From an uncultured bacterium (GTDB taxonomy: Bacteria; Cyanobacteriota; Vampirovibrionia; Gastranaerophilales; Gastranaerophilaceae), in assembly GCA_949293185.1 (NCBI GenBank), contig CASFCQ010000012.1, positions 1 to 55,756 on the forward strand: a stretch of 55,756 bases of DNA, read 5' to 3'. Shown in pieces: positions 48,629 through 50,390 of this stretch; position 1 is the stretch's first letter, and each line of letters opens with the position of its first letter. The notes beneath the pieces are model-generated. The model was not told where the DNA came from, searched no databases, and saw only the letters and a program-made list of their open reading frames with translations. The translations under genes and the position numbers were made by a program.

Positions 48629-48666
48629 ACAAGCGCCGCGGTGCACATAACCGCGGCGTTGTTTTA
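48629..48666 (+). terminator. Terminator after mtnA
   Basis: A GC-rich hairpin (CAAGCGCCGCGGT / AACCGCGGCGTTG) followed by TTTT, 15 bases after the mtnA stop. Confidence 0.9.
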
Positions 48667-48687: not shown

Positions 48688-48760
48688 AAAAAAAAGCCGT
48701 CCATTTAGGCCGGCTACTAGACTTGGGGAGGAGGTTTGTTTGACCTTTCGGTCTAACAAT
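48688..48760 (-). ncRNA. Candidate small RNA with exposed CCUCCUCCCC between two hairpins
   Basis: On the minus strand: a GACC-GAAA-GGTC hairpin (48742-48753), an unpaired ACAAACCTCCTCCCCAAG segment (CCTCCTCCCC over 48725-48734), and an AGCCGGCC-TAAAT-GGACGGCT hairpin with eight T (48688-48715), a good terminator. No gene on that strand precedes the terminator for over 1.5 kb, so it appears to end its own short transcript. The C-rich segment could pair with Shine-Dalgarno sequences. The layout resembles cyanobacterial Yfr1, but the motif is not the same. The rest of the gene-free stretch 48615-49076 holds the mtnA terminator and AT-rich sequence. Confidence 0.45.
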
Positions 48761-49076
48761 TTATTAATCGGCATTAGTATTTGAAAACTTTAATAATATC
48801 ATCTATATGGTTTACATAACTTAATATTTGCGAATAAAAAACAAAAAGAATTGTGTGCAAAAATAAGGTCACTATTGCATTTCCTGAAAATTAAAAATCT
48901 AACATATATAAGTATCAATTTAATTTAAAACAGACTTTGTTAACAAATGTAACGAAAAAAACAAAAATTGAAATTCAATACTTTTTATATACTTTATATA
49001 TATGTAAGTGAAATAAATAAAACAAAGTAAGTAATCAAGAACAAAGTAAGTAAACGAAAAACGAGGTTAACATTAT

Positions 49077-49241
49077 ATGGCTTTGTGTCCTAACAATGCA
49101 ATAGATAAAAAGCTTGCAAAAATGTATGCGGAAAAGATGACAGTAAATCTGGAAAATCGTTCCACACTCGATCCGGAAGATTTCTGGAAGACAATGCAGA
49201 TGATAGCTGTAACAAATAAAGCGATGATGCATTTAAAATAA
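49077..49241 (+). CDS. Small hypothetical protein (54 residues)
   Basis: A 54-residue frame: MALCPNNAIDKKLAKMYAEK to AVTNKAMMHLK. It has amphipathic helices and one Cys near the start, with no known domain. GAGG lies ten bases before the ATG, and codon use looks like that of the neighbours. Upstream, AACAAAGTAAGTAA occurs twice (49021 and 49040), possibly regulatory. A frame on the other strand at 49035-49232 has poorer composition and is rejected. Confidence 0.55.
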   Translation: MALCPNNAIDKKLAKMYAEKMTVNLENRSTLDPEDFWKTMQMIAVTNKAMMHLK

Positions 49242-49379: not shown

Positions 49380-50390
49380 TTATCTTAAGGCAGCGGTTTT
49401 TAGCATGTCTATATATTTTACTTTTTCCTGATTTGTAAAAGCACCTTTTTTGGCAAAATGTATGTGATAGATACCTTTTGGTGTATAGACGATTCTCGCT
49501 ATTTCAGTTTCTTTTGCATTGTCAAATTTCCACTCATACAAAATTTCATTTTGTTTTTGATAAATTATTTTTTTATCAAATGTTTTGTTAGAATTTTTTG
49601 CAATAGCATCAATCGCGCCTATGTGATTTCTGTAATATTCATCGAGTGTTGTTTTAAAGTTGTCGCTCAAAATAAAGTACTGTATGGTGACAAGCTGTGT
49701 CCATTTAAAATTCTTGACATCCTCGCCTTTAAGTCCGTATTCAATAACTTTGGACTTATCATCTTTATGCTCCAGCGCCCTCACCCATTGCTTTTTATCA
49801 AGGTTCAGAATCACTTCGCCTGTTTGATTTATTGTAGTATCTTTTGTTGCTTTTTCGCCTGTATAAGAATTTACTATTTCATTTTTAAATTTTTCTTTGG
49901 ATTGTTGTTTTGCCATAGGGTCATCCATCATATAAGCGGCTTGTTCTTCTTTAATCTGTTTAAGAAGGTTTCTGTAATACAATTTTTCTTTACCGCCCAT
50001 AGATTCCAGGGTCACGGCTGTTTCATAATATTCTATTGCAAGATCGTAATCGTGCTGGCTTCTTTTTAAATCAGCAAGAAAAATATATGCATTCCACAGG
50101 TTGGGGAAAAGTCTTATAGCGTCTTGAAAAGTCTTTTCCGCCATTTTTCTGTCATTTTTGTATGCATAGCTGGCGCCCAAAAGGCACAAAGCGCTGTAAG
50201 AATCGGGTTTGTAGTTAAGAGCATTATTTAAGCTTATTATGGCTTCCTCGTAGTTTTTTTCTTTATATGCACGCATACCTTTGTCGTATTCGTATCGAAA
50301 ATTAAGCGCAGCACAACCGCTCTGTGCAATAATTATGACCGCAAGAACAATGCAGGTTATTAATTTTTTCAAAGATTTTAATAGACTCAT
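49380..50390 (-). CDS. TPR-repeat lipoprotein
   Basis: A 336-residue protein with a lipoprotein signal: MSLLKSLKKL, a hydrophobic core, and IAQSGC where Cys would be lipidated, so it is probably anchored in a membrane facing the periplasm. Residues about 32-135 carry three tetratricopeptide repeats (YDKGMRAYKEKNYEEAIISLNNALNYKPD, ALCLLGASYAYKNDRKMAEKTFQDAI, AYIFLADLKRSQHDYDLAIEYYETAV). The remaining 200 residues are an unassigned alpha/beta domain. ATG 50390 follows AGGAG; a longer start would remove the clean signal peptide. It follows the ABC ATPase gene by 45 bases. Confidence 0.85.
   Translation of the reverse strand: MSLLKSLKKLITCIVLAVIIIAQSGCAALNFRYEYDKGMRAYKEKNYEEAIISLNNALNYKPDSYSALCLLGASYAYKNDRKMAEKTFQDAIRLFPNLWNAYIFLADLKRSQHDYDLAIEYYETAVTLESMGGKEKLYYRNLLKQIKEEQAAYMMDDPMAKQQSKEKFKNEIVNSYTGEKATKDTTINQTGEVILNLDKKQWVRALEHKDDKSKVIEYGLKGEDVKNFKWTQLVTIQYFILSDNFKTTLDEYYRNHIGAIDAIAKNSNKTFDKKIIYQKQNEILYEWKFDNAKETEIARIVYTPKGIYHIHFAKKGAFTNQEKVKYIDMLKTAALR

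Follow-up and report, generated by a model that had tools for sequence, protein, structure and literature searches.

Locus and predicted fold

The window analysed here, 55,756 nucleotides of a contig (CASFCQ010000012.1) from an uncultured bacterium of the Gastranaerophilales, carries on its minus strand a predicted small RNA (sRNA) of about 73 nt (48688-48760), whose 5' start was placed from the promoter (+/- 3 nt) and whose 3' end from the T-run. It is flanked by, and lies outside of, a convergent mtnA-like gene of the IF-2B family (PF01008; 47541-48614, plus strand; 293 bits in Pfam) and a divergent conserved ORF of 54 aa (49077-49241, plus strand; no Pfam match). Read from 48760 to 48688, the RNA consists of one leading base, UUGUUAGACCGAAAGGUCAAACAA, ACCUCCUCCCCAAGUCUAGU and AGCCGGCCUAAAUGGACGGCUUUUUUUU. 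In the predicted fold, UUGUUAGACCGAAAGGUCAAACAA forms a 5' hairpin (48736-48759; UUGUU-A-GACC-GAAA-GGUC-A-AACAA), ACCUCCUCCCCAAGUCUAGU provides 20 unpaired nt (48735-48716) that separate this hairpin from the terminator stem, and the intrinsic terminator AGCCGGCCUAAAUGGACGGCU with its T-run (48688-48715) has a stem beginning at 48715 and eight T at 48695-48688. The unpaired stretch comprises an anti-Shine-Dalgarno run, ACCUCCUCCCC (48725-48735), which is nearly invariant in relatives and enriched in pairing with initiation regions, and a likewise nearly invariant linker, AAGUCUAGU (48716-48724), which is a possible second seed. The original prediction had placed a hairpin, an unpaired segment and a terminator with eight T on this strand; it was right to the base, and the predicted fold agrees with it.

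The fold energy has a z-score of about -2.4 against dinucleotide shuffles, with 1 of 200 shuffles equally good, and the outer stem of the terminator (AGCC/GGCT) is invariant in 31 aligned relatives; a simple terminator scan of the window did not list this terminator. The covariance model R1, described below, has a single match in the window, at the sRNA locus, with 109 bits. The assertion that no upstream gene uses the terminator was borne out: the nearest minus-strand gene upstream ends at 49380, the plus-strand 54-aa ORF lies in between, and no minus-strand gene runs into the terminator. The locus is almost certainly a real RNA gene; its occurrence in 232 of 241 Gastranaerophilales genomes far exceeds chance. 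That the sRNA encodes a peptide was rejected, as the predicted RNA has no AUG and hairpin lengths vary irrespective of frame.

The mtnA-like gene is found near the sRNA in only part of the genus. The 54-aa ORF is 85-100% conserved and adjoins the sRNA at 20 of the 22 loci from the same genus; in more distant genera it stands beside the sRNA at one locus only (L100). Synteny was dropped as a clue to function, since the neighbourhood is kept mostly inside the genus. Having its own promoter and its own terminator amid non-conserved neighbours argues for a trans-acting RNA. In the gap that separates the sRNA from the mtnA-like gene, the window also contains a strong GC-rich inverted repeat (48632-48660), which could terminate transcription from both sides.

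Sigma28-type promoter and predicted regulon

Directly upstream of the sRNA stands TAAAG-N15-GCCGATTA, that is, TAAAGTTT-N12-GCCGATTA (48792-48765, minus strand), which is the FliA/SigD consensus; this sigma28-type promoter is the feature that the original prediction missed. Its -35 element TAAAGTTT (48785-48792) is kept throughout the order with constant spacing, and its -10 element GCCGATTA (48765-48772) has the consensus GCCGATAA over 60 copies. A promoter score of at least 6 of 9 was reached by 86% of 66 distinct copies of the sRNA, compared to 2.5% of shuffled upstream regions, and the distance following TAAAG is constant at 14-15 nt. A sigma70 promoter was rejected, the scan having given fewer matches than shuffles.

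The source genome (G000) encodes a FliA_WhiG sigma factor (231 bits; cut-off 189.6), which also exceeds the curated cut-off in 53 of the 59 relatives searched. The two marks of a sigma28-dependent sRNA, a promoter at the start of the RNA and a sigma28 gene in the genome, are thus both present, and the conserved promoter sequence makes it very probable that the sRNA is under sigma28 control. G000 further has six flagellin matches, at least one of them behind a sigma28-type promoter. Within 1.22 Mb of this genome, such promoters were found before 14 other genes, one of them encoding flagellin, versus 1 in the control; their distance to the start codon is in most cases 32-46 nt, and 66 nt for flagellin. 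Judged by eye from their sequences, as were all functions in this set except flagellin, the genes behind them also include pseudopilin-like, EF-hand-like, MGMAxxQ-type and several probably secreted proteins (e.g. L139, L147, L149, L151, L187). These sequence assignments suggest a sigma28 regulon wider than motility in G000.

Distribution and conservation

DNA searches returned good matches in nearly all of the 59 relatives, with the C-run, linker and terminator as the best-kept stretch. The covariance model R1, built from 31 oriented and aligned copies (alignment A2), matches 232 of 241 Gastranaerophilales genomes, covering 49 of 50 genera and 7 families, usually with one copy per genome and with up to six in some families. 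In a sample of 386 genomes of the phylum, 170 have an R1 match, all of them in Gastranaerophilales, and none of the genomes listed from elsewhere in the class or phylum has one. A core-pattern scan of 84,980 species genomes gave, among the matches listed, records titled Gastranaerophilales, Melainabacteria, Candidatus Adamsella, cyanobacterium or unnamed bacterium, along with two titled Clostridia and Brachyspira, which are probably misnamed bins. Viral contigs contain no exact match to the sRNA core, so that viral carriage is unsupported. Across the genomes sampled, the sRNA is confined to Gastranaerophilales, where it is near-universal; the proposal of an independent small-RNA gene in this non-photosynthetic cyanobacterial relative is supported.

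Rfam scans at gathering cut-offs and by E-value, including E<=10 on the element, yielded no family for the sRNA. The lone match, to an Enterococcus sRNA family in L118 (E 0.0048), was rejected, being far below the gathering score of that family. The sRNA is a member of a new sRNA family.

A lack of conservation in the unpaired anti-Shine-Dalgarno segment, which would have spoken against the original prediction, was not seen: ACCUCCUCCCC(A/G)AGUCU(A/G)G hardly varies between families and is the best-kept part of the sRNA. The letters of the 5' hairpin have changed almost wholly, with 33 distinct stems in 66 distinct copies (variants include GACC-GAAA-GGUC, GGGC-GAAA-GCCC, GGAC-AUAA-GUCC and GAGC-GAAA-GCUC), and its folding is kept, with a mean z-score of -4.6 against mononucleotide shuffles and 92% of the 66 copies below -1. 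A few copies, namely the paralogues at L027 and L030 and the copy at L210, have no clear 5' hairpin. Of the covariation proposed as a check, the shape held through all 33 stems, but RNAalifold on the plain alignment detected little covariation, because hairpin lengths differ between copies; the argument for hairpin conservation is therefore recurrent folding and not a covariation statistic.

Tandem gene copies occur in some families (L112 in G050:C16, with three copies 362 nt apart; L113 in G047; L105 in G056; L027; L030). The second copies at L027 and L030 have a variant core, AAUCUCUUCCCCAAGUCUGG, and a sigma28-type promoter of their own.

Predicted targets and mode of action

Prediction of GGAGG-type targets, as originally suggested, gave a divided result. 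In three genomes the number of strong predicted duplexes that the C-run forms with initiation regions is about double that of its shuffled versions, although C-run pairing with Shine-Dalgarno sequences is partly trivial. For the linker, a signal appeared in G000: its complement AGACTTG is among the most enriched 7-mers at -48 to -8 (rank 3 or 6 of about 10,400, depending on gene-calling details), and 8-nt linker complements occur in 9 of 1,225 initiation regions; neighbouring bins have about 1.4, and in antisense orientation there are none. The order of the sites, AGACTTGG and then GGAGG, is the one needed for the sRNA to span both. This signal did not replicate where the linker differs, with no enrichment of the corresponding words in G047 (AGACTCG; f3 family) or G027 (CAGACTT), nor was there any in 80 public loci, and strong duplexes were no fewer once the linker had been shuffled. 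Repression through the C-run is hence likely, and the linker seed is no more than a lead.

Candidate targets, named by eye from their sequences, are an MTAP-like gene (AGACUUGGGGAGA, about -25 kcal/mol), a glycosyltransferase-like gene, a LysM protein, SMC and SecA. Several genomes of the genus share the SMC and LysM sites, and one shares the MTAP site; the flanks are conserved as well, and no set of targets conserved above their flanks was found. Initiation regions of the sigma28 regulon do not pair with the sRNA better than average (-8.3 versus -8.6 kcal/mol), from which it follows that the sRNA probably acts outside that regulon. The initiation region of the sigma28 mRNA ranks 61st of 1,224 predicted targets, which makes this mRNA a moderate candidate.

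On this basis we favour, as the probable reading, a repressor that acts in trans under sigma28 control, pairs with Shine-Dalgarno regions and is encoded by a stand-alone gene of a family found only in Gastranaerophilales. RNA polymerase with a FliA/WhiG-type sigma28 would start the sRNA from TAAAG-N15-GCCGATTA, a promoter recognised by its conservation, and the 5' hairpin and intrinsic terminator would, going by the predicted fold and its conserved shape, hold the 20-nt segment single-stranded. ACCUCCUCCCCAAGUCUAGU could then pair in trans with translation-initiation regions, with CCUCC lying over the Shine-Dalgarno sequence and with the CCAAGUCUAG linker perhaps adding specificity upstream, so that ribosome binding would fall on selected mRNAs, presumably of genes outside the sigma28 regulon, while the sigma28 programme, with its flagellin, pseudopilin-like and probably secreted proteins, is active. 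For the repression step itself, we regard trans-acting control of translation as likely.

A near-invariant single-stranded stretch of 20 nt would equally suit a protein site, and the authors who described Yfr1 raised the same possibility for that RNA. The sRNA could accordingly serve mainly as a sponge for a translational regulator without any base pairing; we consider this unlikely, given that the segment is complementary to Shine-Dalgarno cores and that the hairpins lack a conserved GGA loop of the CsrA type. The odds are similarly poor that the main partner is not an mRNA start and that the sRNA is instead sequestered through pairing with another RNA, as may happen to Yfr1 with Yfr2, or by 3'UTR sponges. 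Perfect complements of CCAAGUCUAGUAGCC, 15-17 nt long, do occur in the 3'UTRs of two unrelated small-protein genes in three same-genus genomes (L123, G009:C3:22615-22631; L121, G006:C5; L122, G016:C11), where they may act as sponges or be left over from inverted copies, but they are sporadic. In G000 the full-length complement of ACTTGGGGAGGAGG is found at the gene itself and, beyond it, only as one near-complement with two mismatches, for which reason it was rejected as a target. Pairing of the sRNA with mRNA starts remains the preferred reading. As a separate observation, L119 (G013:C17) and L120 (G008:C11) share a common, possibly phage-derived region with a ribosome-binding site, TAGCTTGGGGAGGAGGTATG, that is nearly complementary to the sRNA.

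Relation to known small RNAs

The original prediction described the locus as Yfr1-like, which is apt for its layout and wrong for its family. As in Yfr1 of photosynthetic cyanobacteria, two stem-loops, the 3' one a terminator, enclose 16-20 unpaired nt, in this case 20; the two RNAs are also alike in size, in the sequence of hairpin, CU-rich unpaired segment and terminator, and in having a near-invariant unpaired motif (PMC2190773, PMC6974561), with CUCCUC common to both motifs (PMC2190773). Yfr1 acts in trans by pairing (PMC2190773, PMC6974561), as is predicted for the new sRNA. Common membership of one phylum would further fit a diverged Yfr1 orthologue going back to the ancestor that photosynthetic cyanobacteria and Melainabacteria shared, but such descent is very unlikely. 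The ultraconserved 11-nt motif of Yfr1, ACUCCUCACAC (PMC2190773), is absent from the sRNA, which has ACCUCCUCCCC instead. The Yfr1 model RF01116 passes its cut-off in three cyanobacteria and finds nothing in G000, G046, G047 (at E<=1) or two relatives from the class; R1, in turn, reaches about 10 bits at best on true Yfr1 loci, away from the Yfr1 site, and the other orders of the class are without R1 matches. The guaB/trxA location was not seen either, the neighbours being the mtnA-like gene and the 54-aa ORF, and the sigma28-type promoter belongs to the new sRNA. With the motif absent, neither model finding the other family and the synteny differing, membership in RF01116 was rejected, which corrects a tempting but wrong filing. 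That the plus strand is instead functional, with GGGGAGGAGG as the Shine-Dalgarno site of a short peptide ORF, is scarcely credible: GGAGG does stand 7 nt before the TTG codon of a 15-codon frame and precedes an ATG in some relatives, but the minus strand is the one that preserves promoter, hairpin and terminator alike, and the hairpin varies in length and letters irrespective of frame.

Three other systems invite comparison. The alpha-r14 RNAs of rhizobia, including NfeR1, carry the anti-Shine-Dalgarno motif CCUCCUCCC in unpaired regions and silence at translation starts (PMC10746234). They differ in having 123 nt, three hairpins, three motif copies and control by LsrB/NtrC; in place of three hairpins, each with an unpaired CCUCCUCCC, the new sRNA has one motif, one hairpin and a terminator, and no Rfam match. 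CjNC1/CJnc10 and CjNC4/CJnc170 (FlmR) of Campylobacter are short sRNAs transcribed by sigma28 that target the 5'UTRs of genes belonging to a different sigma class (PMC4626219, PMC11187230). They share with the new sRNA the sigma28 promoter and the probable action outside the sigma28 regulon, whereas no sequence match was found through Rfam. UhpU, MotR, FliX and FlgO of E. coli likewise depend on sigma28, the flagellar sigma factor (PMC10578931); these are UTR-derived and no sequence link to them was found, with MotR and FliX pairing inside coding sequences, in contrast to the intergenic stand-alone gene described here. The resemblance to Yfr1, alpha-r14 and CjNC1/CjNC4 is one of layout or logic only, and the sRNA adds to the cases, known from Campylobacter and E. 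coli, of a flagellar sigma factor controlling sRNAs. In the open-licence literature we found neither this sRNA nor any other trans-acting regulatory RNA described for Melainabacteria or Gastranaerophilales; a near-universal sRNA with a readable promoter would offer a first handle on post-transcriptional control in these largely uncultured gut bacteria.

Genomes without flagellin

Loss of functional flagella in animal-gut Gastranaerophilales has been reported earlier (PMC4040986). A more far-reaching possibility, which we put forward tentatively and rate well below the repressor reading itself, is that a riboregulator serving the sigma28 programme throughout the clade has outlived the flagellum, in which case the sigma factor and the anti-Shine-Dalgarno sRNA would now run a translational switch for surface and secretion functions, possibly with feedback on the sigma28 mRNA. 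Ten relatives with at least 93% completeness are without flagellin (G023, G024, G025, G027, G028, G030, G031, G033, G034, G035). The -10 element of the sRNA drifts to CGTA or CGTT in several of them, and this departure from the consensus in some flagellin-less genera is a point against the sigma28-based explanation. The sigma factor is kept in all ten and the sRNA in nine, a retention after flagellin loss that is directly testable.
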